Shown here: positions 1 through 35,155 of the stretch, piece by piece
Layout: the number at the start of each line of letters is the position of its first letter
Numbering within the stretch: position 1 is the first letter of the stretch
Origin: a virus
IMG/VR virus record: IMGVR_UViG_3300005095_000076
Coordinates: 1 to 35,155 of that record
Reading direction: 5' to 3' (one strand)
Length of the DNA: 35,155 nucleotides
Notes under the pieces: generated by a model
Database searches by the model: none
Seen by the model: the letters and a program-made list of their open reading frames with translations, nothing else
Told to the model about the DNA's origin: nothing
Position numbers and translations under genes: made by a program

Positions 1-76
1 TGATTTGTTTAGCAGTGTGTTGGCTCTTATAAGCTTATTGCTTAAAGACAGAAAATAAATAAAATAAGGAGATGTT
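1..76. other. Non-coding left edge
   Basis: No gene could be supported here. The stretch carries one TTGGCTC motif copy (about 20-26) and the ribosome binding site AAGGAG (about 64-70) of the first gene. What lies to the left of the window is unknown. Confidence 0.4.
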
Positions 77-313
77 ATGAGTATGAGAAGGTATTTTGCA
101 ATGTGTACGATTGCAGTAGTAATAGGTCTAGTATTGATTGGTATTGAGACATTAAAAATGTCTCAAAATGAGCCAATACTACAACCTATTGTATGTAAAG
201 ACAATGAGACTGGAATAAAGTATTACTCATCAATTTATAAGGAAGATGAGATGGGTAATATACAAATAGATAAAGAAGTATTCAATAAGAAGGATTGTAA
301 GCTACTTAGGTAG
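77..313 (+). CDS. Small single-pass membrane protein, unknown
   Basis: A 78-aa protein that I do not recognise. Residues about 8-27 form one hydrophobic segment (MCTIAVVIGLVLIGIE) after a basic start (MSMRR). This predicts a signal anchor with the C-terminal 50 residues outside the cytoplasm. The exposed part has two cysteines (VCKD and DCKL) that could pair. AAGGAG sits 6 bases upstream of this ATG; a second ATG two codons in is also possible. It is the first of five small genes in a row, which in phages are often early host-takeover genes. Such a role is inference from position only. Confidence 0.7.
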   Translation: MSMRRYFAMCTIAVVIGLVLIGIETLKMSQNEPILQPIVCKDNETGIKYYSSIYKEDEMGNIQIDKEVFNKKDCKLLR

Positions 314-357
314 CTTGCTTTGGTTCTGTCTGTGAGTCAGTTACTGGCTTAGAGATA

Positions 358-401
358 GAGCCAAACAGCTCAAACAAATAAACAAATAAAAAGGAGACTA
401 A
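358..401 (+). repeat. Leader spacer: motif copy plus 30-bp exact repeat (copy 1)
   Basis: This spacer carries GAGCCAA and then an A-rich tract (AAACAAATAAACAAATAAA) ending in AAGGAGACTAA just before an ATG. The 30 bases at 372-401 are repeated exactly at 562-591 in front of the next gene. The two leaders probably confer equal translation strength on consecutive small genes. Confidence 0.8.
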
Positions 402-402
402 C

Positions 403-540
403 ATGACATTAAGAGAGGAATTAAGACTACTGTCTATTAAGCACAAAGCAAACCACATTTCAATTAGCACATTAGTAGCTCTAGTAGAGTCTGGCATATT
501 AACAGTACTAGAGGCAAAACTACTTGCTAGTGGCAAGTAG
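403..540 (+). CDS. Very small protein, unknown (45 aa)
   Basis: A 45-aa reading frame, MTLREELRLLSIKHK... to ...LLASGK, with a perfect ribosome binding site (AAGGAG, spacing 6). Its leader is identical to that of the next gene, which is the main reason to trust it. The sequence looks like two or three amphipathic helices (REELRLLSIKHK; STLVALVESGILTVLEAKLLA). No signal peptide, cysteine or known motif is visible. It belongs to the left-end cluster of small phage genes, and no function can be assigned. Confidence 0.65.
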   Translation: MTLREELRLLSIKHKANHISISTLVALVESGILTVLEAKLLASGK

Positions 541-591: not shown

Positions 592-592
592 G

Positions 593-920: not shown

Positions 921-1166
921 ATGAAAGTATTTATTGACAAAAGAATAAAAGACAAAGATGAGTTAGATGAGATAATTAGACAAATCAAAGAGTATGACTT
1001 AGTAGAATTAGAAGAGGAAGCAAGAAACAATATTGCACCATGGTGGCACAACTATATAGTATTTGAATACCACCTAATAGATGGCTTAAAGCCTTGTAAA
1101 CATGAAGGTTTTAAGTTTCTATGTAATATAGACTATAACTATGAAGGAGAGGGGTGTGATGAATAA
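921..1166 (+). CDS. Small acidic protein, unknown
   Basis: An 81-aa protein, not recognised. The N-terminal half is a charged helix (KDKDELDEIIRQIKEYDLVELEEEARN). The C-terminal half is richer in aromatic residues and holds three cysteines (PCKH, LCNI, GCDE). AAAGGA lies upstream of the ATG. The stop overlaps the start of the next gene (GATGAATAA), so the two are probably translationally coupled. There is no signal peptide or membrane segment. Confidence 0.65.
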   Translation: MKVFIDKRIKDKDELDEIIRQIKEYDLVELEEEARNNIAPWWHNYIVFEYHLIDGLKPCKHEGFKFLCNIDYNYEGEGCDE

Positions 1167-1521
1167 GTTATATGAAGAAGTTATTAAGAAAGCCTTAAAT
1201 GTTGCTACAAGGGAAGAGGCAGATGTTCTATTAGACTTTGTAGACTATGACTTGTTAATTAATAAATGTGGGTGCAGGCAAAGAGTAGAAGAAGATTACA
1301 TACAAATACTTCTACACACAGATGAGAAAGTATGGAGTGGCTCTAGAGATGAGAGCCACCCATACAACTCACTATTTGTCCACTTCTATGGCTCAACAGG
1401 TCATATTGAGTTAAACTACCATGATGATTATGATGAGAGTAAAGAGTTTAGTATTAGATTTGAAGATGATGATATAAAGCAAAAGATTAGAGATGTATAC
1501 AATCAATTCTATGGCTCATAA
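1159..1521 (+). CDS. Acidic protein of 120 aa, unknown
   Basis: I chose the ATG at 1159 because AAGGAGAGG lies just upstream; an in-frame ATG at 1141 would add six residues but has no good ribosome site. The protein (MNKLYEEVIKKALNVATREEAD...) is acidic, with a helical N-terminus and a strand-rich C-terminus ending FYGS. No family was recognised. Two motif copies at 1338 and 1353 face each other and form an 8-bp stem (GTGGCTCT/AGAGCCAC) inside the gene. It overlaps the preceding gene by 8 bases and is the last gene before the terminator at 1550. Confidence 0.7.
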   Translation: MNKLYEEVIKKALNVATREEADVLLDFVDYDLLINKCGCRQRVEEDYIQILLHTDEKVWSGSRDESHPYNSLFVHFYGSTGHIELNYHDDYDESKEFSIRFEDDDIKQKIRDVYNQFYGS

Positions 1522-1549
1522 TTGGGTCATAAATCAATTTTCTACATTA

Positions 1550-1600
1550 AAGCCATAGTAAACCTTATCTAAAGGTAAACTATGGCTTATTTTTGTTTTT
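1550..1600 (+). terminator. Strong rho-independent terminator
   Basis: AAGCCATAGT pairs with ACTATGGCTT. An inner ACCTT/AAGGT stem is separated from it by a small internal loop, and ATTTTTGTTTTT follows. It is correctly placed 28 bases after the stop at 1521 to end transcription of the left-end small genes. Confidence 0.85.
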
Positions 1601-1606
1601 AATAAA

Positions 1607-1631
1607 TACTTCCAGACTTCGTCTGAAAGTA
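1607..1631 (+). repeat. Short hairpin after the terminator
   Basis: TACTTCCAGAC and GTCTGAAAGTA form a stem with one mismatch around a TTC loop. It lies directly behind the terminator, with GAGCCAA at 1637. Its role is unknown. Confidence 0.5.
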
Positions 1632-1763
1632 TAAGTGAGCCAAACACATCACAGCATAAACAGTACAGCATAAACCTCATAACCTCAATAACCTAACAAA
1701 AGACAGAATTTTGATTTTAAGCTATTTTTAGGTCTAAGGTATAGTAAGGTATAGGTAAGACAG

Positions 1764-1778
1764 AGAAAATGGATTTAA
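1764..1778 (+). repeat. Outer inverted-repeat arm (left)
   Basis: AGAAAATGGATTTAA is exactly complementary to 2053-2067. A direct copy with one change occurs at 2763-2777. Confidence 0.75.
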
Positions 1779-1838
1779 GGGGTAATTACGTTTCATTATG
1801 AGCACATATCAATCCTACCAATCCTCCCACACTTCCTC

Positions 1839-1982
1839 GTACCTTCAAAATAGCCGGAGACAAATTGGGGGAGTGGCTTGCTTAAGATAAGATAAAGGAC
1901 GTCCGCCGGCTGGCGGGCGGGTTTTAGTCTTAGCTTAAGTTAGAGGGGGTGCCCCAATTTTCGAGGACTGTTTTGAAGGTAC
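1839..1982 (+). ncRNA. Putative structured RNA or origin: long nested hairpin
   Basis: Four paired segments share one centre near 1910. They are 1839-1853 with 1968-1982 (15 pairs, one U-G), 1862-1870 with 1952-1960 (9 pairs), 1877-1893 with 1927-1943 (17 positions, two mismatches, two G-U) and a GC tip 1900-1907 with 1912-1919 around loop GGCT (one U-G). The wobbles favour RNA made from the + strand. Together they predict a rod of about 140 nt. It matches no RNA family that I can recognise. A replication origin hairpin or packaging site would look similar, so RNA gene is an inference. Confidence 0.5.
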
Positions 1983-2000
1983 AGCTAAACTAAGGGGTAC

Positions 2001-2018
2001 TTAGGGCGCTAGCCCTAA
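2001..2018. repeat. 7-bp hairpin with GC-rich stem
   Basis: TTAGGGC and GCCCTAA flank loop GCTA. Eight As follow on the + strand, so the hairpin lacks the U-run of a + strand terminator. On the - strand the T-run comes before the stem. Confidence 0.5.
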
Positions 2019-2052
2019 AAAAAATACTTTAATAATGAGCCAGAATTAAGGT

Positions 2053-2067
2053 TTAAATCCATTTTCT
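2053..2067 (-). repeat. Outer inverted-repeat arm (right)
   Basis: TTAAATCCATTTTCT is the exact reverse complement of 1764-1778. The pair encloses the structured element with nearly the same centre. Confidence 0.75.
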
Positions 2068-2171
2068 AAGCTTAGGGTATAGTAGGTATTGGCTCAATAG
2101 TATCTCTGGTTCTAATAGTGGTTTATGAGCCAAACAGCAAAACAATTAACAAAAATAAAAAGGAGTTAGAT

Positions 2172-2714
2172 ATGAGTAAAAAAGCAATTTCAATTACAAC
2201 GTTCATCAAGAGAGCCAACCTTAGTACATCAGCTAAAGATAAAATAGTTGAGGTGTTAAGAAAAGAAGACCTAATAGACAGCGAACATGTTGAAACTAAA
2301 ACAATAAAGTATATAAACGTAAAGAAAGAAGCACTAGATAGAGCAAATGAGCTTATACAAAGGTATGAACTACCAATAAAAAAGTCTAAAAGTAAAAAAG
2401 AGGAAGAGATACTAGAGCCAATGTACATCTATCTAATACTAAGACTAGATAAACTAATAGTTAGAATACATGATGAGCCAATACTTGAAGACCTAAGTAG
2501 GATAGACAGGGTGTTAGCAAGAAGCAAGTATAAGAAAGTAGTATTCAATCAAGTATTTAAAGATATTAAAAAGTATGCAACCCTTGCTTCGCAAGGGAAA
2601 GAGCCAACCCCAACCAATACCAATACCAATACCAATAGTATAAAACTAGGATTGGACTTCTTACCTTTGGCTCATAGTTTAATAAAGGTAGTAGATATAG
2701 AGCCAATACAATAA
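2172..2714 (+). CDS. Putative DNA-binding protein with Thr-Asn repeat, unknown
   Basis: I chose the ATG at 2172 because it follows AAAAAGGAGTTAGAT; a longer frame from 2118 would run through the spacer. The 180-aa product is basic and helical at the N-terminus (KKAISITTFIKRANLSTSAKDKIVEVLRKEDL), which could be a helix-turn-helix. It then has a lysine-rich linker (KKSKSKKEEE) and a helical middle. Residues about 152-160 are a Thr-Asn run (TPTNTNTNTN) encoded by a CCAATA microsatellite. A perfect CCCTTGC-TTC-GCAAGGG hairpin lies in the gene at 2581-2597. Lying between two origin-like non-coding regions suggests a role in replication or copy control, but no family was recognised. Confidence 0.65.
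   Translation: MSKKAISITTFIKRANLSTSAKDKIVEVLRKEDLIDSEHVETKTIKYINVKKEALDRANELIQRYELPIKKSKSKKEEEILEPMYIYLILRLDKLIVRIHDEPILEDLSRIDRVLARSKYKKVVFNQVFKDIKKYATLASQGKEPTPTNTNTNTNSIKLGLDFLPLAHSLIKVVDIEPIQ
2581..2597 (+). repeat. Intragenic 7-bp GC hairpin
   Basis: CCCTTGC and GCAAGGG flank a TTC loop inside the coding sequence, immediately before a GAGCCAA copy at 2601 and the CCAATA microsatellite. Confidence 0.6.
2617..2640 (+). repeat. CCAATA microsatellite
   Basis: Four tandem CCAATA units encode the Thr-Asn run of the gene at 2172. Similar CCAATAC strings appear again after the stop at about 2741-2762. Copy number could vary by slippage in steps of two codons without breaking the frame. Confidence 0.75.
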
Positions 2715-2794
2715 CAAATGGAAACTTTTATTTTGAGCCAACCCATACCAATACCAACCAATAGAAAATAGATTTAAAGGTATGTTATGGCTCA

Positions 2795-2830
2795 TTAATA
2801 ACTAATAACTAATAACTAGTAACTAATAAA
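2795..2830 (+). repeat. Tandem AT-rich 7-mers (TAATAAC type)
   Basis: About five consecutive units of ACTAATA, one of them ACTAGTA. Such a run is typical of DNA-unwinding elements in origins, though simple slippage could also produce it. Confidence 0.6.
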
Positions 2831-2839
2831 CTATCATAT

Positions 2840-2961
2840 GGACTTTTGTTGCGTAGTAACAACAAGTCCACCCCACCCCTTTCTAGTTGCTACCTTGTGA
2901 GCTCCGTCGAGCAAGGTAGCTCTTTCTAATTATCGAAAGAATTTCTAGTTGAAATTCTTTC
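2840..2961. repeat. Cluster of three strong hairpins
   Basis: The first hairpin pairs GGACTTTTGTT with AACAACAAGTCC at about 2840-2868. The second pairs GCTACCTTG with CAAGGTAGC at 2889-2920. The third pairs GAAAGAATTTC with GAAATTCTTTC around TAGTT at 2935-2961, an 11-bp perfect stem. Three in 120 bp is unusual in this genome. Termination of the upstream gene is possible, but only weak T-runs follow them. Confidence 0.65.
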
Positions 2962-2978
2962 TAATTATAAAAGTTAGT

Positions 2979-3143
2979 GTATCGAATTTGATACTTGCTC
3001 TTATAGTATCGGATTTGATACTTATGACACCCATCTCTTAGTGTATCGAATTTGATACTTATGTTTGAGTATCGGATTTGATACTTACGTAACTTCTTTG
3101 TGTATCTAATTTGATACTATAATTAGTGTATCTAATTTGATAC
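2979..3143. promoter_or_regulatory. Six-copy 16-bp dyad array (GTATC-N6-GATAC)
   Basis: Copies start at 2979, 3006, 3043, 3069, 3102 and 3128, all reading GTATC, (G/T)(A/G)ATTT, GATAC. Centre-to-centre distances alternate 27, 37, 26, 33, 26, so copies come in pairs separated by about 2.5 helical turns. The array ends just upstream of a promoter for a ribbon-helix-helix protein. It is best read as that protein's operator array or as iterons for the initiator-like gene at 3362. Each copy is itself an inverted repeat and has conserved CTT or CTTA at its right edge in most cases. Confidence 0.8.
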
Positions 3144-3150
3144 TTTTAAG

Positions 3151-3178
3151 TTGTATTTAAGTTTAATTACGTTATAAT
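3151..3178 (+). promoter_or_regulatory. Putative sigma70-type promoter
   Basis: TTGTAT (3151-3156), 16 bases, then TATAAT (3173-3178), with the start codon of the next gene at 3214. The sixth dyad abuts the -35 element, so binding there could repress or activate it. Confidence 0.6.
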
Positions 3179-3213
3179 ACTTTTACATATAAATAAATAA
3201 TAAGGAGTAAATT

Positions 3214-3381
3214 ATGGCAAGACAAAAGACAGACAAAAAGATGTTCACATTCTACGTTAAGAAGGAATTGCTTGATAGGATATCTGAGTTGGCTCAAAGT
3301 GAGGAGCGAACTAAGAGTTGGTTCGTTAATAAAGCAATAGAAAAGTTTTTGGAGGAACACTATGGAAAAGATAAAGATTAA
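3214..3381 (+). CDS. Ribbon-helix-helix DNA-binding protein
   Basis: A 55-aa protein starting MARQKTDKKMFTFYVKKELL. Residues about 9-15 (KMFTFYV) form the beta ribbon, followed by a helix (KKELLDRISELAQSEE), a turn (RTKS) and a second helix (WFVNKAIEKFLEEHY). This is the Arc/CopG layout of phage and plasmid regulators, which act as dimers on short dyads. AAGGAG lies 7 bases before the ATG. It sits directly downstream of six dyads and a promoter, so autoregulation through that array is likely. Its end overlaps the start of the next gene at 3362, suggesting coupled expression with the initiator-like protein, as for plasmid copy-control regulators. Confidence 0.8.
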   Translation: MARQKTDKKMFTFYVKKELLDRISELAQSEERTKSWFVNKAIEKFLEEHYGKDKD

Positions 3382-3949
3382 TCACCCCCATATACTAGTT
3401 GGGGCTTATTGTAGTTGGCTCAGAGAGTCAAATATACAAAAAAAATTAAATCACCAAGAGTTTAGGTTATTGTATGGGTTAATGAGTGAAAGTTTTGGAT
3501 ATTTGCAACAATATACGTTTTTGTCATATAATGACATAATAAATAACTATGGTTTTTCAAATAGAAATTCAATATCTAAATCTATAAAATCACTGATTGA
3601 AAAAAAACTAATTAAAAAAGTTAATACTCAATATAATGGCTCAAGAGGCAAAAACAAATATCAAATTATACTTCCTGATGAGATATTAAATAATTATGAG
3701 ATATATTGGAGAAGGGAGAAAAAAAGTAAAGAGCCAAAGCTTGATGAACTAAGGTCAAAGTTTACTCATCAAGATGTGGCTCAAGACGTAATAGAGTTCT
3801 TTAATATAACAGAAGATTCCTTAAAGAAAGATGAAACGAAGAAGTATCATCATGATAGAGTTAAAAAATATTTCAAAATGGACTTCGATGAATATACTAA
3901 AGAGATTGAATTCTTAAAAAGAATTGAAAATAGTGATTCACCATTCTAG
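3362..3949 (+). CDS. Winged-helix replication initiator-like protein
   Basis: A 195-aa protein. Residues about 25-100 resemble the winged helix of lambda O-type phage initiators: helix (LNHQEFRLLYGLMSES), helix (LSYNDIINNYG), recognition helix (SNRNSISKSIKSLIEKKLIKKV) and a basic wing (YNGSRGKNKYQI). The C-terminal half is charged and likely helical. It ends NSDSPF, a tail like the tip of single-stranded DNA-binding proteins. GGAGG lies upstream of the ATG, which overlaps the preceding regulator. Its position before helicase and primase genes and after a repeat field fits origin recognition and helicase loading. A generic winged-helix transcription factor is the alternative. Confidence 0.65.
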   Translation: MEKIKINHPHILVGAYCSWLRESNIQKKLNHQEFRLLYGLMSESFGYLQQYTFLSYNDIINNYGFSNRNSISKSIKSLIEKKLIKKVNTQYNGSRGKNKYQIILPDEILNNYEIYWRREKKSKEPKLDELRSKFTHQDVAQDVIEFFNITEDSLKKDETKKYHHDRVKKYFKMDFDEYTKEIEFLKRIENSDSPF

Positions 3950-3972
3950 ATAAAATTAATAAGGAGTAGGTA

Positions 3973-5808
3973 ATGAAGCTTAGAGACTATCAAGAAGAGG
4001 CAGTGAAAGGGGCTATAAGATTAGCTAGTGTTGAGTCAGAGGTGTGTATATACGCCCCGCCTGCATTTGGTAAGACGATTTCTGGTGCATACTTAGCTAA
4101 GCATTATATTTCACAAGGTAAGAAAGTTGCAGTTATGGTTAGGTTTTCAAGCCTTATACCACAACTTGCTGAGACTTTCAACAAAGTAGGGTTAAATCCT
4201 ACTGTATTAAAGGCTAATGAAGAAGTGTTTGGCTCAAAAGATTGTTATATTGTTATGGAGCAAACAGTAGTAGCAAGAGAGATAGAGTTAGATATTGATG
4301 TATTAATCATAGATGAATACTCACAAGGCTATGAGGGAGGCAATAGAGCCAAAATAAAGCAACTTTTTAAGCCAGATATAGTAATAGGCATGGATGGTAC
4401 TCCATGGGATTCTAAAGGACATTTTGTGCCAAAGAAAGAAGCTTTAATTGAGACTGTTACTACATTAGACTTAGTAGACAGAGGATATCTTAGTGATGTT
4501 AAGTTTTATAAGATAGCTTCAACGAATGAAGTCAATGATAGTGTTATAGAGGAGATAAACAAAAGAGGATACATAACTGATGAGAGAAGCTATGAGTTAT
4601 TAAAAGATGTTAACAAAAAGCTTATATCTGAAGTTGTTAATAAAGATGTGTGTATTGGCTCTGTAAAAGATTTAAAGTCAATTTGGTTTTGTAGCTCAAT
4701 AGAACATGCAAGAGCCACAGCTGATGTTTTAAGAGAGTTAATACCAGACACTTATACCATATCTAATCCTTCACTTATTGGCTCAGAAGAAAAAGAAGAG
4801 AGTGTTGTTGGACTATTGACAAGTCAAGATGGTAATGACAAAGAGATAATTCAACTTTTTAAAGAAGGAAATATTAGACATTTAGTGTCTGTTGCAAAAG
4901 TATCAATAGGCTTTGATGTGCCAGACACAATTGTAGGTGTAGACCTAAGACCATCTGGCTCAGATAAAAACCTTATTCAAAGACAAGGCCGTATTAGACG
5001 TAAAGCAGACAGTAAGCCATATGGAGTGTGGATTGATTGTGTTGGTAACCTACAAAGGTTGGGTTTTGATACTATGCCACATATTGAGCCAACTAAAGAG
5101 AATAGGAAGGCAATAGAGGCACGTAAACGCCTTTTAAATCTACTTTCTACTGTTGACCCTAATATTGAGTTAAGGGAAGGGTTAAAAGTTAAAATAGAGG
5201 AAATACAAGAGGCTAAATCTAAAGCTTTACCATCTCTAACAAATAAGGAATTGATTGACTTGTACGAGGCAGTAACAGATTACTATGAATTATTAGACTT
5301 AATGGTAGAGATAAACAAGAGGTATGGCTCAAAGAAGTTAACAAGTAAAAGTCAGGAGTGGCTTTTTGATAAACTTATTTGGGTATATAAATTATTCGAA
5401 CATGAGCCAAAGCTTCAAACTATTATCTTCAATCAACTTAAAAAGAGATTTAAACGTTTAATTAAGGAGAGAAAGAAGATTACCTCATTGTACTTTTGGG
5501 TTGACTGGTTATTGGCTCAAAGCTATTGGAGGAAGGATTTTAAGAATGCTTTCTATAACTCACAAGAGTATGAGTGTCAAGAGTGTAGTGAAGTATTACC
5601 TATTGAACTGTTTTATGATAAGACAGATACTTTGGCTCATTGTCCAGTATGTTCAAGTATTGAGAAACAAATTGTTCTACCTTATGAGCCAAAGAAGATA
5701 TATCAGTATGAAGAGAGCTTTGAAATAAGCGAAGAGGAGATACAAAAGATAATCAATAAAGTAGAAGAAAAGATTGTTGATTTAAGTGATGATGAGATAC
5801 CATTTTAG
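3973..5808 (+). CDS. Superfamily II DNA/RNA helicase
   Basis: A 611-aa helicase with the ordered SF2 motifs. The Q-like start is LRDYQEEAV (residues 3-11), and Walker A is APPAFGKT (28-35). Motif II is IIDEY near 114, an unusual DEY in place of DEAH or DECH. Motif III is GTPW near 142, and motif VI is QRQGRIRR near 336. After the two RecA-like domains comes a helical region. Near 535-560 there is a zinc-ribbon-like CxxC...CxxC pair (CQEC, CPVC). The end, SDDEIPF, closely resembles the SSB tip that binds replication partners. It starts 23 bases after the initiator-like gene and precedes the primase. It probably unwinds DNA during phage replication or recombination restart. Confidence 0.85.
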   Translation: MKLRDYQEEAVKGAIRLASVESEVCIYAPPAFGKTISGAYLAKHYISQGKKVAVMVRFSSLIPQLAETFNKVGLNPTVLKANEEVFGSKDCYIVMEQTVVAREIELDIDVLIIDEYSQGYEGGNRAKIKQLFKPDIVIGMDGTPWDSKGHFVPKKEALIETVTTLDLVDRGYLSDVKFYKIASTNEVNDSVIEEINKRGYITDERSYELLKDVNKKLISEVVNKDVCIGSVKDLKSIWFCSSIEHARATADVLRELIPDTYTISNPSLIGSEEKEESVVGLLTSQDGNDKEIIQLFKEGNIRHLVSVAKVSIGFDVPDTIVGVDLRPSGSDKNLIQRQGRIRRKADSKPYGVWIDCVGNLQRLGFDTMPHIEPTKENRKAIEARKRLLNLLSTVDPNIELREGLKVKIEEIQEAKSKALPSLTNKELIDLYEAVTDYYELLDLMVEINKRYGSKKLTSKSQEWLFDKLIWVYKLFEHEPKLQTIIFNQLKKRFKRLIKERKKITSLYFWVDWLLAQSYWRKDFKNAFYNSQEYECQECSEVLPIELFYDKTDTLAHCPVCSSIEKQIVLPYEPKKIYQYEESFEISEEEIQKIINKVEEKIVDLSDDEIPF

Positions 5809-5837
5809 TTTGGTTCTCATTTAAAAAGGAGATTGTT

Positions 5838-7835
5838 ATGTTGTTTGAAGATATAGTAAACGAAGTAGTTAAAGAGGCAGAGAATATAAGTGGTAAAAAA
5901 GTAGAGCCATTGATAGCAATCAATCAAGTATTGTTTGTGTTTGGCTCAATAATTGGAATAAAGAGGATAAAATTAGCAAATAGGTATATAAACCATATGG
6001 GGGTAACTTTTGCTCCTAGTGGTGCTGGTAAAGATTTAACATTATCTATATTAGAGAACAATTTAGAGCCAATCAAAGGGTATGCAGATATAGTAAGCAA
6101 ATCTTTAAAAGAGGACGAGGTTGACGACTCAATGATTGTGCCTACTAAATACAAGACGCCTTTAATAGGTAGTGTACAAGGAGCAATGAGAGTAGCTAAC
6201 TACCTATCTAAATGTAGGTATGGTAGTTTCAATATTATGGAGAATGAGTTTGGCTCTAATATGAATAAGCAGACAGTTGAGCTACTTATTAAACTATGGC
6301 AAGATGGTAGCTCATTAGGAAGTGTCAATGTTAATGAGAAATATCCTCCTATCGAAGACCTTCCTACTAACGCATTGCTATTTGGTACTATTGCTCCATT
6401 TGAAAGAGACGATAAGAAATATAGGGATTTAGTTGAAGTGCTTGAGACTGGCTTTGCTAGAAGGGCACTGTTTTTTAATATTAAAATTGATAAGATTGAA
6501 TTATTAAAGGAAAAACATGATGTTGACTTATCAATATTAAAAAAAGCAGTAGACAATATTAGAAGAGTTAAAGAGTTCTATATACCAAAGACATCAGAAG
6601 CTTATTTGGCTCTATATAGAGAAAAGTTAATTGATGACTACAATAAAGAGCCAACTGATTGGAATTATATTAGAACTAGTAACATTGACAAAATAGAGCG
6701 TTTAGCTAGTCTAATTTCAATTATAAACGGTTTTGACTACTTAGAGCTAGAAAGCCTTAAGGTAGCTATAAAACTGTCTGAAATCAGCGATAAACACTTG
6801 CTGTCAATCATTAAACCTAAACAGCCGTATCTTAAGATTTATGAGCATTTAAAGATAGTTAAATCTAAGTTTAAGACTGAGTTACTAGATGAATTAGGAA
6901 TTAAATTAACTAAGAGCCAGCTTCAAGAGCAGTTAGATATGTTAAAGGAGTATGCTTATAGAAACAATTATGAATTAAAAACTACCTCTATGATGGTGCA
7001 TTTAATGCCACTTAGAGACAGTAGCTTAGATGAGATTATAGTCAGTGTAAATACTGAGGGTAAAGGTGAGAGGGGAGTGTTGGCTCAAAATAAAATAGCT
7101 AAGTTCTTTGGCGAGAAGATGTCTATTGAATCACTAGTTAGAAGCAAAGTAGACTGGTACTCATTTGTACATTACAACGGTACAAGAAGTCAAAATAATG
7201 CAGTACCAGAATTCAATTGTATTGCTTTTGACATTGACGATGGACTAGACCTAGATGATTGTATAGGAATGTTGCTTCCTTATACAAATATAATCTACAC
7301 AACAAAATCTCATAGAAAGGAAAAGAATGGAATTATTGCAGACCGTTTTAGAGCCATTGTGCCTATTAAAAGAGTTATTTCTCTTGATAGTGGAAAATAT
7401 AAAGAGTTTGTTAGGAATGTATCTAAGCTTTTAGGGCTATACAACTATATAGACTATTCAACAGTTGAGCTAAGCAGACTATGGTTCCCTAATCCAGAAG
7501 CTCAAATATTTAAAAACAAGGCAGACTTATTAGACCCTATTTGTTGTATACCAGAGACAGCTAAAGAAGAAGAAGTTAGCAGAGCGATTAGAGAGTATGA
7601 GGCTAATACTAGTACAGATGTTGACAAGCGTATAGCTGGTATTAGTAAATGGGCAATAAGCAATGCTATTGTTGGCTCACGTAACAATACTTTATTTAGA
7701 GCTGGTATGTTGATTAAAGATTTAACAGATACTAGTACTGCTAAAGCTAAAGTGCTAGAGATTAATAGTTATCTGAGTGAGCCACTAAGTGAAAGAGAAA
7801 TAGAGGCAACTATATTTAGGAGACTAAACAAGTAG
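5838..7835 (+). CDS. ATPase-primase fusion (DUF3987-like plus AEP primase)
   Basis: A 665-aa protein. The N-terminal P-loop APSGAGKD lies near residue 60 in a domain like the DUF3987 helicase-type ATPases. The C-terminal half is an archaeo-eukaryotic-type primase: motif I AFDIDD (acidic residues 465 and 467), motif II KSH near 495 followed by DRFR (502-505), and motif III YIDYS (Asp 539). The last 65 residues resemble a primase C-terminal domain (PriCT-1). Primase activity plus ATP-driven translocation would supply lagging-strand primers. In many phage and plasmid proteins the primase precedes the ATPase; here the order is reversed. It lies 29 bases downstream of the helicase. The ATPase assignment is less certain than the primase. 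Confidence 0.8.
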   Translation: MLFEDIVNEVVKEAENISGKKVEPLIAINQVLFVFGSIIGIKRIKLANRYINHMGVTFAPSGAGKDLTLSILENNLEPIKGYADIVSKSLKEDEVDDSMIVPTKYKTPLIGSVQGAMRVANYLSKCRYGSFNIMENEFGSNMNKQTVELLIKLWQDGSSLGSVNVNEKYPPIEDLPTNALLFGTIAPFERDDKKYRDLVEVLETGFARRALFFNIKIDKIELLKEKHDVDLSILKKAVDNIRRVKEFYIPKTSEAYLALYREKLIDDYNKEPTDWNYIRTSNIDKIERLASLISIINGFDYLELESLKVAIKLSEISDKHLLSIIKPKQPYLKIYEHLKIVKSKFKTELLDELGIKLTKSQLQEQLDMLKEYAYRNNYELKTTSMMVHLMPLRDSSLDEIIVSVNTEGKGERGVLAQNKIAKFFGEKMSIESLVRSKVDWYSFVHYNGTRSQNNAVPEFNCIAFDIDDGLDLDDCIGMLLPYTNIIYTTKSHRKEKNGIIADRFRAIVPIKRVISLDSGKYKEFVRNVSKLLGLYNYIDYSTVELSRLWFPNPEAQIFKNKADLLDPICCIPETAKEEEVSRAIREYEANTSTDVDKRIAGISKWAISNAIVGSRNNTLFRAGMLIKDLTDTSTAKAKVLEINSYLSEPLSEREIEATIFRRLNK

Positions 7836-8926: not shown

Positions 8927-8939
8927 ATGAAGATTGAAA
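8914..8939 (+). repeat. 26-bp direct repeat at left junction of rha gene
   Basis: AAAGGAGAGTTAAATG plus the next ten bases are identical to 9517-9542. The two copies are exactly 603 bp apart, the length of the gene between them. Confidence 0.85.
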
Positions 8940-9529
8940 AGTTAGGGTTGAAGCTAGATAGATATAGCTTCAAAGCAGATAGTAGAGTAGTGTCGAAAGT
9001 ATTCGGCAAAAATCACAAAGACTTCCTAAGAAAGATAGAAAACATAATTAAAGATATTGATAGTACTGAGCGCAATTTTGCGCCCAGTAAGTTATTTATA
9101 GAAAAAACATATATAGACGCAAGCGGAAAGCAAAATAAATACTATGAAATGACAAGAGATGGGTTCTCTCTAGCAGTAATGGGGTTAACAGGTAAAGAAG
9201 CTTTAAAGTGGAAGTTGAAGTATATTAAAGCTTTTAATTTGTTAGAGGAGAAGTTATTACAAACTTTAGAAGAGAATAAAGAGTTAGCAAAAGAATTAGC
9301 TGATTGGTATCCAAAAGATAAGTTTGGCTCAGTAAATAAAGATGGAGTTGCAAAGGTTAAAAAAGTTAGAGGTTATTGGAGAGGAGACAAAAATAGCGAA
9401 TTAGCTAAATTAATAGCAAAAAGGAATAAGATTGAGAAATTAATTCAAAATACTTTAATGGAAGAAGAGCTAGAATTAGAACTTAATAAAACAAAATTCA
9501 GAATTGAGCAACTTAAAAAGGAGAGTTAA
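8927..9529 (+). CDS. Rha-family phage regulatory protein
   Basis: A 200-aa protein. The first 110 residues follow the Rha pattern: a DSR-V segment (ADSRVVSKVFGKNHKDFLRKIENI), then the ERNFAPSKLFIEKTYIDASGK segment, then MTRDGFSLAVMGLTGKEALKWKLKYIKAFN. Rha proteins are phage regulators that interfere with infection in the absence of host integration host factor. The C-terminal half is a charged coiled-coil-like region. A 12-bp-arm palindrome lies inside the gene (9064-9089). The gene is precisely bounded by 26-bp direct repeats, suggesting cassette insertion. It directly abuts the ATPase gene that follows, without a gap. Confidence 0.8.
   Translation: MKIEKLGLKLDRYSFKADSRVVSKVFGKNHKDFLRKIENIIKDIDSTERNFAPSKLFIEKTYIDASGKQNKYYEMTRDGFSLAVMGLTGKEALKWKLKYIKAFNLLEEKLLQTLEENKELAKELADWYPKDKFGSVNKDGVAKVKKVRGYWRGDKNSELAKLIAKRNKIEKLIQNTLMEEELELELNKTKFRIEQLKKES
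9064..9089 (+). repeat. Palindrome inside rha gene
   Basis: TACTGAGCGCAA and TTGCGCCCAGTA are separated by two bases, with one mismatch. It encodes the ERNFA segment. Equivalent palindromes occur in the two related genes at 16169 and 16911. Confidence 0.75.
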
Positions 9530-9542
9530 ATGAAGATTGAAA
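9517..9542 (+). repeat. 26-bp direct repeat at right junction of rha gene
   Basis: Identical to 8914-8939. It contains the ribosome binding site, the stop of the rha gene and the start codon plus first codons of the ATPase gene. Confidence 0.85.
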
Positions 9543-10192
9543 GTTTAGATAAAAATTTAGAAGAGAGCCAAAAGTTAAAAGTTTTAATCTATGGACAAAG
9601 TGGCTCAATGAAGACAAGAACAGCAATTGCAACTGGTAGAACATTTATGTTAAGTCTAGAAAAAGGGCATAGAGTTTTAAAAGGAGCTAAGAATGACATT
9701 GTTGTTGCAACTCCATCATCAATTGATGAAGTAAAAGAGGCTTATAAATATCTAATTCAAAACAAGGACAAATTTGATACTGTCATAATTGACTCTATTA
9801 CAGAGTTGAGCAATATGATACTTGAGGAACTTCAAAACGATGAATATTGGGGTGATGATAAGAGAACTTTAAAACTTTGGGGTGAGCTAAGTAGAAAACT
9901 GCTAGCAATTCTAAAAAGTTTCAGAGATATAGAGGGTATCAATGTTGTTTTAATTGCATTAGAAGATGTAATTGAGGAAAACTTTAAAACAGTTTATAAA
10001 CCATTACTAGATGGAAAAAAGACTGTTGAATTTGTACCAGCATTGTATGATGTGGTTCTAAGATTCGAAAAACAAGACAACAATAAAATATTAGTTCACC
10101 CAATTAAGGATAGAACAGGTTATTTCTTAGAGCCAAAGGAGATTGACTTTGAAAATCATTTAAAAGATTTCTTCAAAGAGTACATAAAGTAG
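9530..10192 (+). CDS. Sak4-like phage ATPase (AAA_24 type)
   Basis: A 220-aa P-loop ATPase. Walker A is GQSGSMKT (residues 22-29), with Met in place of the usual Gly. Walker B is DTVIIDS near 83-89. Beyond these the pattern FDTVIIDSITEL and a later LRFEKQ segment match phage nucleotide-binding proteins of the Sak4 group, RecA-related single-strand annealing ATPases that work with a phage SSB. The SSB-like gene follows, then a Cas4-type nuclease and a resolvase, which supports a recombination module. Its start lies within the right copy of the 26-bp repeat. Confidence 0.75.
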   Translation: MKIESLDKNLEESQKLKVLIYGQSGSMKTRTAIATGRTFMLSLEKGHRVLKGAKNDIVVATPSSIDEVKEAYKYLIQNKDKFDTVIIDSITELSNMILEELQNDEYWGDDKRTLKLWGELSRKLLAILKSFRDIEGINVVLIALEDVIEENFKTVYKPLLDGKKTVEFVPALYDVVLRFEKQDNNKILVHPIKDRTGYFLEPKEIDFENHLKDFFKEYIK

Positions 10193-10277: not shown

Positions 10278-10961
10278 ATGGCATTTTTAGACGTAGATAC
10301 TAATGGTTGGGATTTTGTACCAGCAGAGGCAAAAGAAGGATTTGAAGAGTATACAGGAGCTTATAAAGCAGTTATTACAGAAGCATTTGGTTCAGAGAGT
10401 AAAAAAGGAGCTAAATATGTGCATTTAGATTTAGACCTTTTTGACCCAAGAACAGGAGAGGAAGTAGGTAGAAAAGGATTTGACTTATACCTAACAAATA
10501 AAGAAGGTAAAAGCACATTTGAATTTGAGGCAAATGGTAAAAAGATAGTTAGAAAGCTTCCAGCATGGAATACGCTAGCAACCATTGTAGCTAAAGCTTA
10601 TGGAATTGAAGAAGAGTATGAGATTAAAAACAAGGTAGCACAACTATTAACAAATACAGTTGACGCCGCAAAAACTGTATATGGTGAACAAAAAGTTGTT
10701 GCTGGTATTCCAGAGTTAGCAGGTAAAAAATTTACAGCTGGATTAGTTCTAGCATACAATGACTACAACGATAGTTTCAAAAGTGACTTAAAGTATGTAG
10801 AAGATTTTGATTGTGACGAAAAGTGTTTAGAGAAGCTTGAGAAAGCAATCAAGAGAGCAAATGAAAGAGAAGCTAAGAAGGCTGAAAAACAAAAGCCTAC
10901 TAGTTCATACAAGGAAAATAATACTAATAAAGATGACGACTTATCAGATAGTCCATTTTAA
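10278..10961 (+). CDS. Single-stranded DNA-binding-like protein (DUF669 type)
   Basis: A 227-aa protein whose layout, a beta-rich body (residues about 1-165) then a charged linker (EREAKKAEKQKPTSSYKENN) and an acidic end DDDLSDSPF, is that of phage SSB-like proteins of the DUF669 type. The first residues (MAFLDVDTNGWDFVPAEA) and GAYKAVI and KGAKYVHLDLDLFD fit this group. It would coat single-stranded DNA and recruit partners through its acidic tip. It follows the Sak4-like ATPase, its usual partner. The gene has no GAGCCA copy in 684 bp, which is rare here. Confidence 0.7.
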   Translation: MAFLDVDTNGWDFVPAEAKEGFEEYTGAYKAVITEAFGSESKKGAKYVHLDLDLFDPRTGEEVGRKGFDLYLTNKEGKSTFEFEANGKKIVRKLPAWNTLATIVAKAYGIEEEYEIKNKVAQLLTNTVDAAKTVYGEQKVVAGIPELAGKKFTAGLVLAYNDYNDSFKSDLKYVEDFDCDEKCLEKLEKAIKRANEREAKKAEKQKPTSSYKENNTNKDDDLSDSPF

Positions 10962-24900: not shown

Positions 24901-25274
24901 CTTTTAGCAACAATAGCTCCCATTCCTCTACCTAAACTTGCTACTCCACCAGTAGCCGCAGACATTGGAATAAAGCTTAAAGTGTCAGCTAACATATCTG
25001 CACTTCTTGCACCACTAGCATTGGCTCTTTGTGTCTCTTCAGCTAGCTTGATTCTCTCAGTAGCTAAGTCATCATTACCAGCAAAATGAGCTCCTAATGA
25101 GCCAATTACCAATGCTGGTTTCTTAACTATCTCATCTGTCATTGAATAATCAATTTGATTAGCTGTACCTTGAGCCAATGTATTAACATCATCTTGCCCT
25201 ATGCCTGTATCATACTCAGCCTTTTGCTGAGCTAGTATGTCTTGAAATGTTGGTAATTTATCAAAGTCAATCAT
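18912..25274 (-). CDS. Giant virion ejection-type protein with zinc protease motif
   Basis: A 2120-aa protein, the largest gene here. The N-terminal 200 residues have Gly/Ala-rich helices (GSLGAHFAGN; SAATGGVASLGRGMGAIVA). Residues about 550-1050 are long charged coiled coils. Near 1111 lies HETTHYID, the HExxH zinc-protease signature, with a candidate third ligand Glu1151 in NELIANFIADF. The C-terminal 400 residues are helical with hydrophobic stretches (MALMMAMYYGAL-like near the end). Phages of the podovirus type carry such large internal proteins that are injected with DNA and may degrade the cell wall or modify host proteins. It ends the late operon after two likely partners. Its start overlaps the previous stop. 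No RNA polymerase signature was seen. Confidence 0.7.
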   Translation of the reverse strand: MIDFDKLPTFQDILAQQKAEYDTGIGQDDVNTLAQGTANQIDYSMTDEIVKKPALVIGSLGAHFAGNDDLATERIKLAEETQRANASGARSADMLADTLSFIPMSAATGGVASLGRGMGAIVAKRIHDRVAEKFMKNYYEKSLQKVLNKGVKTELDTAFGRSMQDTINMTLQQPHAFMKEENGEKKFDIGSQTLEALGINKVMSAVPHYALAGAEIGLNKFKASKLKDKIAINGNYAKLNGLDSTDFQMSTKDNIEKQAVEDINNYQPEAEYYFTTDNKGEFVMNLPEIGSGRGMVLEDGTLYFDMSQSKINDKLLIQKVGDKPMFEPVKLEDGQFVEIGKEENLAQELAQNEDMAQYSLDEQVEYADIEKAFDSINDLSDESIDKLSNQFYEILKDKGISKEKVKAGIKALRDDLVNDPNAVEKTPEVLKDEILQMDLNEFAQIAEEERANTANTFDEANVYYEKGDDGNIVQTMTTDNDSVLSENVGSQVSKRDVGIDETRYSELKDPTDGAIAINRKDKEIANSETQKAVEEQAKKEYDNWFKRKESQIISEIKDVHKQKLKPEEIKTMAQTKIDKLKKVKEGNKFESMTKVKTKTEVISDVPKEKLEATKQKLIDSYGLKEEDIRVKELENGKYELEYDSLDFPELNEQYKNLDKVDDTVNEFKKEIKTEKEAKEAIKEEEKLKQEKEQSKQEKLDSIFYYRTKPDKEGKSKMVDSIVNKERLLKNLDEKIEDVTKKYEYRAKELETLKGLKDKLSKDRIKEIKKEMKELNKDYKFYKKTKKLVGDETNGDRAYHELVRKVIDGKIRKVLGDRQASYKAQYVMEELQRLDDMLVKGEVELDGFKYVTRNDKGEIVINDKAVRELEQAYDTVLKTINKRIKQFRESLEYYDKKKKKTISKLDKRAEKMVRNALEALENYKKLIETRKNPDVIKEHLLQYVEDPKVQEILREKYELREKLNDIVEPLDKKRIEERLYELDEELAQKKYGVKELEKEYLKGVEKMDFTKFNEKVKSMINEARATLERSKKIEPKKERLENIIYKESSMINLIGSKKIEAQKHRPKVIQLTEAEKKNLKVGNINGLQVKNIIGVGTTLKNDKAKHIKTIMHETTHYIDNYNEVKFRQDLIDELRANDEIMSLYGYDINDNELIANFIADFYTGEATKHTKSLFTGIKKKNFSDVMEELNRYDEKLSEVKEDIKALDNDFKKTKDTKELEWLAQRKLKLLETEKELRRKKQEAVNKYFKSKDTVVVFDALDLGDRAKTSLDDYGYKLHNTINSSPELKGLFFDDVPKDTVSTTYHKKGKALTQIPMEQLKKKYEDLYDMLDTMNIFDVFVIDAQREAMERIATLKAGAEETIMSQLNESYNKFKKEIEDNVRAEDKAEADYYFGRAIHMGLHKAVHDLDSFDFRSVEKWAKDQNRSIGDLLLSKGAKLTVDKLDLNKTINQLIDNVAKEKFGSRLTNYFYATLRDGTRRSGLSGKIPKNAPEIVKVLRKAIENLDDLDIDLVGTLDKEIARRRTLHQLYKNKKTFNKKLLDTIDNNAEGFKKISKLWEGVEETMKRVGSYGHQFAVNPELNLKNWDKVLKLTPKVKKGQDVVKKYKGGMYLVMEDKPDLTIGAQDSVFVGFSPKNHEKGIYKAYLTGHKIKKGDKGKYYIKIKDKWIELDTNEIAVRYNQKKGVYEAFAHVPIQDLEKKRLYGSHDAVIDTKLSTYFKKNKYISYSENVSQHYRRRQMRIALDNGILLNKEDWLKLEPKEQAKYVKHKISDYGTYYVKRRHLHNILGTKSKDLGDFTKVFGKYKKFVDANIVRPILGAMEALKGVILTYNLASYANSYVSSYAIYFTHANRFGKFREDVKDAQRGIESYKQKLKKVAEEAAKTGEDINYLIKKYKLDEDPIHYAFVNGLGTTIREATYGTGAYQENRLMKTLRPLFKNDSMYNGLKNWFALPDSKLGSKFGELFDKTELEPKLALYLDGIKSGLTKEESLQKTLMAFPNYSMNLTPTLRFLDVVSPYTKYLTNYPKMLVSAQRHGMGRVALMMAMYYGALEASYNFQPDKDEEWFYENDFFKLGSDTYLYAQSLLPYVFPLDPDEFANISVWSSFDKLLFPFDLNPLVFAN

Positions 25275-30115: not shown

Positions 30116-30311
30116 TCATAATCCTTTCTTCTAAGTCTTTTACGTAGTTATTAAAACATACTCTTGCTTTAATCTCATCTCTTGAGCCAACAGTATCAAT
30201 ACCGTCGGCTAGTGCAATATCTTTTATCTCGTCTGTGTACATTGACACAAACTTTCTAAACTCCTTGCATTCCAATAACGTCACTAGTTCTTGGTGGCTC
30301 ATTTGTTTCAC
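30108..30311 (-). CDS. Small protein between portal and scaffold, unknown (67 aa)
   Basis: The start is GTG at 30311 after GGAGGCAGAAG; an ATG at 30302 with AAGG is an alternative. The 67-aa protein (MSHQELVTLLECKEFRKF...) is charged and helical. It overlaps the end of the portal gene by 56 bases and the scaffold start by 8 bases. Small genes here in other phages can be head-assembly helpers, but there is no evidence for that in this case. Confidence 0.55.
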   Translation of the reverse strand: MKQMSHQELVTLLECKEFRKFVSMYTDEIKDIALADGIDTVGSRDEIKARVCFNNYVKDLEERIMNG

Positions 30312-32232
30312 CTTCTGCCTCCTTCTCTAATTTTTCTATTTCAGCATACTTCTTAGCTAAGTCTGCATACTTTTGTCCAACTTCTGGGTCAATACTTAAC
30401 ATCTCTTTTTGCGCTTTAACTTCTGTCTGCTTAGTTCTACCTAACGCATTTTGAGCCAATGCTTGTTCTTTCATAGCTTTAGCCTTTAAGTATTCAATCT
30501 CAGCTTGCTTCTCCATAATCTCTAGTTGGTCTGGTTGTGGCTCATATTGTTCAATAAGCTTAGCAATGTCTGGTCTATCTAGTGCCTCTGCTAAGTCTGC
30601 AACTAATAACTGCATAGCCTTTTGTGGCACTGCACCTACACTAGCAAGTGGAGCAAGTTGTTGCATTAGCATGTTAAGTTGTTGCACCTTGATTGTTTTC
30701 TTAGCGTCTGAGCCAACCTTGATATCTATATCGTAGTCTGCATACTTGTTATTAAATAGTTCATCTACTTTTTGAGCTATAAGCAGTTGAGCTTCTAGTC
30801 TCGTCTCTTCGTCTGGTATTTGGTCTAATCCATATTGTTGAGCCAATCTCTGCATTTCAATCTCTTTTAGCATTGAGATATTAATGCCTGTAATCAACTC
30901 AATGTCTGCTTCGGTTAACCACTCATTAAACATTGCTACCCACATCTTAAACATTTGATATAGTCCAAAAGCAATATTGTCAATTACATTCTCAAGCTTG
31001 ATTTGGCTCTGAGTCATCATTAACTGTACGTTTGTAGCTGGAGCTTTAAGGTCTTGAGTAGAAGCATTGCCTCCCATCATCTTATTCACTCCAGTTGTCT
31101 CACTTGCACTGTCTTCAAATAGTGCAAATACATTAAACACTGACTGTGGTATTTGATTAAATGAGCCATCTACTACTACATCTCTAATGCTTCCAGTTGT
31201 CCTAACCTCTACATATGGCTCACCAGCTTGAAGTCTTTTTAGGTTAATTTCATCTAGGCTGTTTTTTCTAATAAACTTAGTAGCATTATTACTTAGAGCC
31301 ATATTATCTATTACTCCACGCACAATACTTGTTGTAACTTTTTGTTCATCAAATATAAGCTCTGGAAGGCTATCTGAGAATAAGCTAAATGGTGTTGGGT
31401 GAAGGTTTATAAGTATAAAAGGAAATCTATCAAATGGGAATGGAGAATCGTTGCCTTTTAATTTTCCTCTCTTCTTCCCCTTAGTCTCAACTTCACCATA
31501 TTCGTTTTCTACCTTTTTGTCTTCACCTTCTAGGTGCACTTCAAACTTGATATTGCCTTCCTTGTCTCTATACCAAAACTCATATAGAGTCACAACATCT
31601 GAGCCAATGTATTGTTTATGTATAGCACTATCTGTTTCACTTCTAAAAATATCATCACTACTTTGGCTCCCTAATGTAGATTCAATAACCTTTTGGTCAT
31701 ACTCTTTATTTCTTTTAATATTGTCTACTCTATCTGTATATTTGTAAATAATATACTTTGCTTCTTGTAAATTCTCAGCGTTTGGGTCAATATAAACATT
31801 CTCAGTTCTCAGCACCTTTTGTGTTGGTTGCTTTAATACTACCTTCCCATCTTTCTTCTTAATCTTCCACCCTACTCTTGCTATTGCGTTTCCTTCACTA
31901 ACAAGTACAGTAGTAAGTCTTTTAAGGAAGTTAATCCTTGTATGCTTTTTATTCCAAAAATAGTTTATTAGCGCTTCGTCTATCTTAGCCTTATATGCGT
32001 CATCTTCACCTACTGGGTCAACTGCAACAATACTTTTTCCTCTAAAAGCTTTATCTAAGTTAGCAATCATTGTTAAGCTTTGTTTTTTAGCTAACTTCCA
32101 TACAATCCTACTTCTGCCATCTACTTCATTACCTAATGGCTCACCAAAAAATATCTCTTTACTTTTTGCTATCTTTGATTTTAAAGTAGCATTAAGTGTA
32201 TCTGCTTCTAATAAAGCCTCATTAAAATCCAT
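30256..32232 (-). CDS. Portal protein
   Basis: A 658-aa protein with the length and layout of podovirus-type portals: an N-terminal helical region, then the wing (VLVSEGNAIARVGWKI and the signature ENVYIDPNAENLQEAKYII, residues 144-163), a long central part with a DSASETTGVNKMMGG-like tunnel region, and a Gln/Ala-rich helical C-terminal barrel (MEKQAEIEYLKAKAMKEQALAQN). The dodecameric portal sits at one capsid vertex and passes DNA during packaging and ejection. It precedes the scaffold and capsid genes. Its start overlaps the stop of the previous gene. Confidence 0.85.
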   Translation of the reverse strand: MDFNEALLEADTLNATLKSKIAKSKEIFFGEPLGNEVDGRSRIVWKLAKKQSLTMIANLDKAFRGKSIVAVDPVGEDDAYKAKIDEALINYFWNKKHTRINFLKRLTTVLVSEGNAIARVGWKIKKKDGKVVLKQPTQKVLRTENVYIDPNAENLQEAKYIIYKYTDRVDNIKRNKEYDQKVIESTLGSQSSDDIFRSETDSAIHKQYIGSDVVTLYEFWYRDKEGNIKFEVHLEGEDKKVENEYGEVETKGKKRGKLKGNDSPFPFDRFPFILINLHPTPFSLFSDSLPELIFDEQKVTTSIVRGVIDNMALSNNATKFIRKNSLDEINLKRLQAGEPYVEVRTTGSIRDVVVDGSFNQIPQSVFNVFALFEDSASETTGVNKMMGGNASTQDLKAPATNVQLMMTQSQIKLENVIDNIAFGLYQMFKMWVAMFNEWLTEADIELITGINISMLKEIEMQRLAQQYGLDQIPDEETRLEAQLLIAQKVDELFNNKYADYDIDIKVGSDAKKTIKVQQLNMLMQQLAPLASVGAVPQKAMQLLVADLAEALDRPDIAKLIEQYEPQPDQLEIMEKQAEIEYLKAKAMKEQALAQNALGRTKQTEVKAQKEMLSIDPEVGQKYADLAKKYAEIEKLEKEAEGETNEPPRTSDVIGMQGV

Positions 32233-33919: not shown

Positions 33920-33922
33920 AAC

Positions 33923-34348
33923 CTACTCCTTGTAGATTACGTACTCAATGTAGTCATAATATATTGAGCCAACTTTGAAACCTACTTTAGCTAAATTCCT
34001 TCTACTTTGCTTGTATGAAGGTAGAGTAACAGTCCTGATTGATAAAAACCTATCAACGTTGTTTTTAACTTCTTGAGCCAATATCTCAAACACTCTATCA
34101 TAGTTGGCTCTATTTAACTTCTTAGTGAAGAATAAAGTTAGAAAACCACATCTAGTTAATACTGCAAAACATATATCATCAATCCTCATAGCTAATGAGT
34201 CTCTTCTAAAGTTCTCCCTAAGGGCGTCGTAACACCCTTGGTACCCTAACATCTTAGCTTCCTCTTCGTCTTTGTCTAAAAACTTTTGAGCCAAAGCTAA
34301 AGTTAAAAACTCATCAGCATTACTAAATGTATAATATGTACTATTCAT
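33923..34348 (-). CDS. T7 gp13-like (GNAT-like, DUF2833-type) virion protein
   Basis: I chose the ATG at 34348 (MNSTYYTFSNADEF) because AAGGATAGAACAG precedes it and it overlaps the previous stop; a longer frame from 34387 has no ribosome site. The 141-aa protein ends with FEILAQEVKNNVDRFLSIRTVTLPSYKQSRRNLAKVGFKVGSIYYDY, a pattern like the acetyltransferase-type C-terminus of T7 gp13, where an aromatic or polar residue precedes RNLKKLGF. T7 gp13 is needed to assemble internal virion proteins but lies after tail genes. Here the gene is upstream of the portal. The assignment is moderate. Confidence 0.5.
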   Translation of the reverse strand: MNSTYYTFSNADEFLTLALAQKFLDKDEEEAKMLGYQGCYDALRENFRRDSLAMRIDDICFAVLTRCGFLTLFFTKKLNRANYDRVFEILAQEVKNNVDRFLSIRTVTLPSYKQSRRNLAKVGFKVGSIYYDYIEYVIYKE

Positions 34349-35048
34349 CTGTTCTATCCTTATCATCGTTATCGTCATCACTGTCACATTTAAATGCTCC
34401 AGACTCTCTCATTAATGCGTCAAATATACATGTAGTTTTATCATTGTTAATAATCTCTGGTACTGCGGCATTACCATCATCATCTACTAGTAGACCACTA
34501 CTAAACATCATAGCCCATGCGTCCATAATAATTTTAAACACGTCCTTTTGGCTCTTTTCATCAAAGCCTTTAATTTGTCTTCTAGTTAGCAATACCTGTT
34601 CAGCCTGCAGTAGCACTTGATTTTTCTTAATCTCTAGCTCTTGCTCTTTAATATCTAAGTCTTTCTCTTTTAATTGAATGTCGATGTCCATCATTTCAAT
34701 TTGTTTATCTTTTAATTCAATCTCTTTCTTCTTTAGGTCAATCTCAACGTCCATTAGTTCTAACTGCTTCTCTTTTAGCTCAAGCTCTTTCTCCTTTAGA
34801 GCCAACTCTTGTTCTCTAATATCTAAGTCAGCTTTAGCTATTTCAATCTGAGCGTCTTTGTACTCCATCTCTTTCTCTTTAAGTGGAGCGTCAAATGAAG
34901 CTAGAAGTATTGCATTGATTAGCTTCTCATAAACTTCTGCATACTCAGTTCCTTTAATCCTTTTTAATTCATATTGAGTATCTAGCTCAGTCTTAACCTT
35001 TTGAGCCAATCTGTCAAATATGCTTTCAATTTGTTCTATATCATACAT
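34341..35048 (-). CDS. Long coiled-coil protein, unknown
   Basis: A 235-aa protein. Residues about 60-165 are a near-continuous coiled coil of repeated KE(K/L)ELELKEKQLEL-type units, in which (D/E)(I/L)xLKEK(E/D)L repeats can be followed by eye. A short globular part (FKIIMDAWAMMFSSGLLVDDDG) and a very acidic tail (SDDDNDDKDRTDE) follow. It may be a virion assembly or tail-length-type helper. No family was recognised. The start overlaps the stop of the upstream partial gene closely (4 bases apart). Confidence 0.6.
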   Translation of the reverse strand: MYDIEQIESIFDRLAQKVKTELDTQYELKRIKGTEYAEVYEKLINAILLASFDAPLKEKEMEYKDAQIEIAKADLDIREQELALKEKELELKEKQLELMDVEIDLKKKEIELKDKQIEMMDIDIQLKEKDLDIKEQELEIKKNQVLLQAEQVLLTRRQIKGFDEKSQKDVFKIIMDAWAMMFSSGLLVDDDGNAAVPEIINNDKTTCIFDALMRESGAFKCDSDDDNDDKDRTDE

Positions 35049-35051
35049 ATC

Positions 35052-35155
35052 CTAATCCTTTAAAATGATATCTTGCATAGGTGTAGTTCTAATTATTAAG
35101 TTCCCATACTCATCTACTTCTGTACTGAGTATAAAAACTAAATCGTTAGAGTTAA
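35052..35155 (-). CDS. 3' end of a gene running off the right edge
   Basis: An open frame of at least 34 codons enters from the right edge and stops at 35052 (TAG), ending ...TPMQDIILKD. The remaining sequence is VFILSTEVDEYGNLIIRTT before that. Its stop is 4 bases before the start of the coiled-coil gene, in the same operon-like spacing as elsewhere. Product unknown. Confidence 0.5.
   Translation of the reverse strand, partial: NSNDLVFILSTEVDEYGNLIIRTTPMQDIILKD

Follow-up and report, generated by a model that had tools for sequence, protein, structure and literature searches.

A dispersed GAGCCA motif in a distant relative of phage N4, best explained as proposed start sites of the phage's own primase

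The window, i.e. the whole stretch of DNA analysed here, is 35,155 bp in length and has a GC content of 33%. It is a linear IMG/VR virus record and a fragment of a phage genome that is distantly related to Escherichia coli phage N4 (Schitoviridae-like). The portal protein gene (30256–32232, minus strand) places the phage near the Schitoviridae: it matches N4 gp59-type portals (PHROG 1216, E=2e-71) and is 24–30% identical (about 25%) to those of Schitoviridae and AD45-like phages. No close relative was found in the phage collection. The left half has an N4-type replication gene set on the plus strand, in company that resembles N4 gp42–gp45. It consists of an SF2-type DNA helicase (ResIII/Helicase_C, 3973–5808), an N4 gp43-like helicase-primase of 665 aa (5838–7835; PHROG 2135, E=4e-61), a Sak4-like recombinase at the N4 gp44 position (9530–10192; PHROG 124, E=9e-38), an N4-type single-strand DNA binding protein (SSB; 10278–10961; PHROG 743, E=2e-7) and a RecB/Cas4-like PD-(D/E)XK nuclease (10977–11768; PHROG 1706 and PF12705, with an alignment). 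No DNA polymerase or terminase was matched among the proteins scanned in this fragment. A protein of 2120 aa (18912–25274) is found where N4-like phages carry the giant virion RNA polymerase; it has no PHROG or Pfam match, and relatives have proteins of 1859–2964 aa in that place. Rha-like (two), KilA-N/amidase-family-like and HU-like genes (8927–9529, 14272–14871, 15686–15958 and 16028–16741, of which 15686–15958 is HU-like) are unusual company for an N4-like phage.

The gp43-like protein appears to be composed of three parts. Residues 1–327 (5838–6818) form a predicted AAA+ helicase-like domain, and a model of the whole protein has MCM helicases as best matches to this half (Z 18.1, rmsd 3.4 Å, 262 residues aligned). 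Residues 397–572 (7026–7553) form a predicted AEP-like catalytic domain with the motifs IAFDIDD, TTKSH and D539, which correspond to the hhhDhD, sxH and hD motifs of the AEP primase superfamily. D465, D467, H492 and D539 are invariant in 11 relatives, and the motifs align with those of N4 gp43, to which the protein is 28% identical in its C-terminal half. When the C-terminal half is modelled alone, its best structural matches are AEP enzymes (S-2L PrimPol, Z 7.6, 3.8 Å over 136 residues, followed by RepB′, Prim-PolC and CAPP), but the match is modest, Foldseek alone gave no significant match (E>0.05) and a PDB profile search with the primase returned none. Residues 613–659 (7674–7814) are a PriCT-1 domain (PF08708, E=3e-7, above its cut-off) and a candidate template-recognition element. 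The same domain in the pRN1 prim-pol, there termed the helix bundle, binds the template motif (PMC5862659; PMC8718748).

The sequence GAGCCA/TGGCTC is found 182 times in the window, 104 times on the plus and 78 times on the minus strand, or once per 193 bp. The longer GAGCCAA/TTGGCTC is found 133 times, and TGAGCCAA 85 times. Base composition predicts 6.0 copies and dinucleotides 9.8 (z=53.6). The core is preceded by T in 116 copies, by A in 62, by G in four and never by C, and is followed by A in 133 of 182; GAGCC itself is followed by A in 182 of 184 cases. The original observation, that this motif is massively over-represented across the whole phage, is thus confirmed. A codon-aware control, which had been proposed beforehand as a test, was carried out by shuffling synonymous codons while keeping every protein and the codon usage. 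It gives 30.9±4.5 copies within genes compared with 166 observed, and GAGCCA ranks first of all 6-mers. The density is the same in genes (1/195) and between genes (1/172). All reading frames are used, although unequally: Glu-Pro (GAG CCA) is the commonest reading, with 54 of 166 sites. EP, GS and AQ dipeptides are about twice as common as expected, and therefore the motif even shapes proteins. A by-product of codon or amino acid usage, mutation bias or repeated genes, for which the Glu-Pro frame might be cited, is refuted, as the codon-shuffle null fails by about 30 standard deviations, both strands and all frames are used and intergenic density is equal; site conservation and spacing, described below, also argue against it.

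The absence of strand choice that had been proposed also holds overall (61/44 in the left and 43/34 in the right half). The modest plus-strand excess, which had been taken to follow the molecule rather than transcription, is only about 1.9 standard deviations and is not built upon here. What could not be seen from inspection alone is that neighbouring sites alternate in orientation far more than by chance (119 switches compared with 89.1±6.6; z=4.5), because sites on the same strand avoid each other within about 100 bp. At 0–60 bp, the window has seven same-strand pairs against 28 expected, and three long relatives have 26 against 80; opposite-strand sites show no such avoidance. Pooled over 11 contigs, there are 127 same-strand pairs within 100 bp against 237±11 with shuffled orientations. 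The alternation z is 9.4 over 17 contigs, but some of these overlap or are related and the pooled value is inflated. Among 73 other frequent 6-mers of the window the median alternation z is −2.9, and the only one above 1 is AGCCAA, which overlaps the motif. In N4 itself alternation is weak (z=1.5), where background copies dilute it. The motif is thus read on one strand at a time, and a second copy nearby on that strand adds little.

This bears on the proposal that the sites bind a DNA-organizing, packaging or regulatory protein (HU, Rha/KilA-N type or SSB) spread along the genome. The window encodes HU-like and Rha/KilA-N-like proteins, and site density is uniform over genes and gaps. However, a double-strand binder should avoid crowding in either orientation, whereas only same-strand pairs are excluded, and packaging or segregation signals do not explain such exclusion. 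In addition, no tblastn match to the Rha, HU or KilA-N-like proteins was seen in the long relatives, which carry the motif. This reading appears unlikely. No methyltransferase or other epigenetic reader was annotated among the proteins scanned, which did not include every small protein.

Single-protein searches for relatives found nothing, but searches with portal, nuclease and primase alignments gave relatives at 35–42% portal identity and beyond; several are short fragments from the same metagenomes and are not independent. In about 20 of the close relatives, all uncultivated contigs, the leading strand-symmetric 6-mer is GAACCA, one base different from that of the window, at about one per 155–400 bp over 22–51% GC. 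The flanks match too, the core being preceded by A or T and usually followed by A. Other spellings are GAACCACC in two relatives (contigs L315 and L216), AGAACCG in L230 and GGAACCA in the GC-rich L130 and L241. L230 and L229 are 71% identical in DNA but use AGAACCG and AGAACCA, respectively, and three aligned sites differ by exactly that change. The nearest relatives by replication genes, L304 and L305 (primase 56–58%, Sak4 75%), instead favour TTGCTACA/TGTAGCAA; on the codon-aware null TTGCTACA stands at 16 against 1.7 and TGTAGCAA at 9 against 2.5, and the switch is considered likely but not proved. Six relatives (L128, L131, L212, L219, L225 and L243) lack a clear motif, but these contigs are mostly structural fragments. 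Three motif-rich relatives of 43–46 kb (G160, G167 and G169) carry primase, nuclease and, in one annotated case, terminase. No DNA polymerase was noticed among their scanned proteins, so the prim-pol or the host polymerase may copy the genome.

In aligned DNA of related phages, GAACCA sites are kept about twice as often as composition-matched 6-mers in the clearest pairs of contigs (81% compared with 54% in L208/L209, 56–65% with 27–32% in L209/L226 and 61% with 33% in L208/L210), although some other pairs show little or no difference. Some lost sites read GAGCCA.

Cultured N4-family phages also have the motif. With the codon-aware null and excess required on both strands, GAACCA is the top 6-mer in N4 (94 against 23.8 and 116 against 41.1; 220 copies in 70 kb). 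AACCAA and GAACCA lead in Vibrio cholerae phage JA-1 and Enterobacter phage EcP1, and AAGCCA and AAACCA in Pseudomonas phage LUZ7, while GAACCA is second in Roseophage DSS3P2, a phage of Ruegeria. Vibrio phage SBP1 has the same primase family but no such motif. There is no excess in E. coli MG1655, the species that is host to N4 (9 against 15.8 and 16 against 17.4), nor in an unrelated Xanthomonas phage. A family-independent scan with triple-motif patterns was too insensitive to be of use. A motif-pair search of viral contigs gave random hits and one unrelated contig (IMGVR_UViG_3300014208_000051, positions 1113–7128) with eight inverted pairs TTGGCTC...GAGCCAA 22–36 bp apart in its first 7 kb, probably repeated hairpins or terminators. 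Other strong 6-mers were present in two unrelated viral contigs, L055 (ACCTGA, 26 against 1.9) and L082 (AGGTAC, 33 against 3.4), from counts without regard to strand symmetry or repeats. In Alteromonas phage PT11-V19, CAGGATCA is found 16 times in 25.7 kb against 0.4 expected, and perhaps is a coding repeat.

The motif therefore goes with the phage family and not with the host, which disfavours a signal borrowed from the host, such as a DNA uptake sequence, host Chi or segregation motif. The density and dispersal do resemble uptake sequences, and one relative's contig lies in a Sulfurovaceae bin, which is weak evidence for a host of the window among the Campylobacterota, a group that includes competent species. 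However, k-mer counts in 150 Campylobacterota genomes and in sequence samples of four gave values near expectation or at most about twofold. GAGCCAA was near Markov expectation in three samples and twofold in the fourth, GAGCCA was about twofold enriched in one orientation in two of the samples, and no polarity along the replichores was found in two complete chromosomes, although none of these need represent the window's own host. Spacer matches gave only low-complexity or conserved-domain hits; a short tandem repeat of TAATAAC (2795–2830) includes a 34 bp stretch that matches a Campylobacterota genome at 97%, but it is of low complexity and not a convincing spacer. A host-derived signal is thus very unlikely on present evidence. 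Uptake sequences (Haemophilus, Neisseria) and Chi sites are likewise short, dispersed, over-represented and conserved, but they belong to bacterial genomes and are sparser, whereas the present motif is a phage-family trait at about one per 155–500 bp.

Of the functions originally suggested (uptake sequences, Chi-like sites, packaging or segregation signals and primase start sites, with a replication-linked signal suspected), the primase start site fits best; that interpretation is thus partly supported, in that the evidence supports a phage-determined, replication-linked signal. The statement that the sequence is not known in phages agrees with literature searches, which covered open papers only, but GAGCCA is one spelling of a motif spread through the N4 family. 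Strand-specific, dispersed, locally redundant sites tied to a replication module are what primase start sites should look like, and the cultured N4-family phages above all share the gp43-like primase with AEP motifs. In twelve GAACCA contigs, on the strand reading TTGGTTC, the base 5′ of the motif is G in 47% of sites (16% in controls, p=1e-50), and the next two (−2/−3) are pyrimidines more often than in controls (p about 2e-10). AEP primases prefer to start on 3′-G-Y-Y-5′ or similar (PMC10345425). The window's own sites do not show this flank significantly.

The AEP primase-polymerase of vent phage NrS-1 depends on the unusually long template motif 5′-TTTGGTTA-3′ (PMC8718748), which shares TTGGTT with the TTGGTTCT of the relatives. 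But the NrS-1 genome holds only two copies (PMC7102993), the enzyme also uses GTG sites, no sequence link was found in the PDB profile search and the domain order differs, the helicase being first here. T7 primase sites, 5′-(G/T)2GTC-3′ (PMC12839067), are also dispersed phage start sites read on single strands, and TGGTC resembles TGGTTC. T7 gp4, however, is a TOPRIM/zinc-finger primase with a 5-nt site, compared with the predicted AEP-type enzyme and 6–8-nt motif here. The primer might start beside the motif, as in NrS-1, or inside it, as in T7. RSF1010 RepB′ (PDB 3h20, 3h25) and pRN1 ORF904 are AEP primases whose helical C-terminal part helps recognize a template motif. RepB′ acts at defined plasmid origins, and ORF904 reads GTG (PMC8718748); neither has hundreds of long sites in its genome.

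The best explanation, held with moderate confidence, is that the motif is the recognition site at which the phage's own gp43-like, AEP-type primase starts new strands on single-stranded template. In this view, the functional strand would carry 5′-TTGGCTCW-3′ in the window, 5′-TTGGTTCT-3′ in most vent-type relatives and 5′-TGGTTC-3′ in N4. The replisome would need a start site every few hundred bases on each strand, so that selection would keep many sites, space them out per strand and bend codon and even amino acid choice to make them. When the specificity of the primase shifts, the sites would shift with it (GAGCCA here, GAACCA in most relatives and apparently G[TA]AGCA in the nearest relatives). 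The evidence is entirely statistical and comparative: the excess, the site conservation, the strand-specific exclusion, the family-wide occurrence and the shared primase gene are established by the analysis, but that the primase is the reader, that it contacts the sites and that priming is the function are inferences. Against the proposal, SBP1 and several N4-like contigs lack the motif, and the primase cannot be separated by co-occurrence from its co-inherited neighbours (Sak4, SSB and nuclease).

Among the ALTERNATIVES, a phage-specific Chi-like site is the main rival and is not excluded, because the nuclease, helicase and Sak4 travel with the primase. The RecB/Cas4-like nuclease with its helicase, or another translocating enzyme, would read the motif on one strand and switch from degradation to loading of the Sak4 recombinase, and dense sites would mark and protect phage DNA. 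The nuclease was found in the three long motif-bearing relatives, every locus fetched with it has a strongly over-represented motif, and per-strand redundancy would also fit a directional reader. However, most motif-free contigs examined lack the replication module, so the nuclease link is not discriminating; a Chi-like role does not predict the G-then-pyrimidine bases on the 5′ template side, and Chi reading by such small phage nucleases is not established. It is considered possible but unlikely.

Primase start sites are normally so short that their imprint on a genome is hard to see. A further reading, about as likely as not, is that the genomes of this phage family are written around their primase, with hundreds of 6–8-nt initiation sites maintained, spaced separately on each strand and rewritten genome-wide when primase specificity changes, so that specificity can be read directly from genome sequence. 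If these are primase sites, replication has shaped the sequence, codon choice and even amino acids of a whole phage family that includes the classic model N4, and each genome records the specificity of its primase. Primase specificity, and its evolution between close relatives, would then be directly testable with N4 in E. coli K-12. If instead they are Chi-like sites, a phage-borne self-marking system would have been found. Either way, an unexplained motif in an uncultivated phage becomes a testable property of a well-known family.
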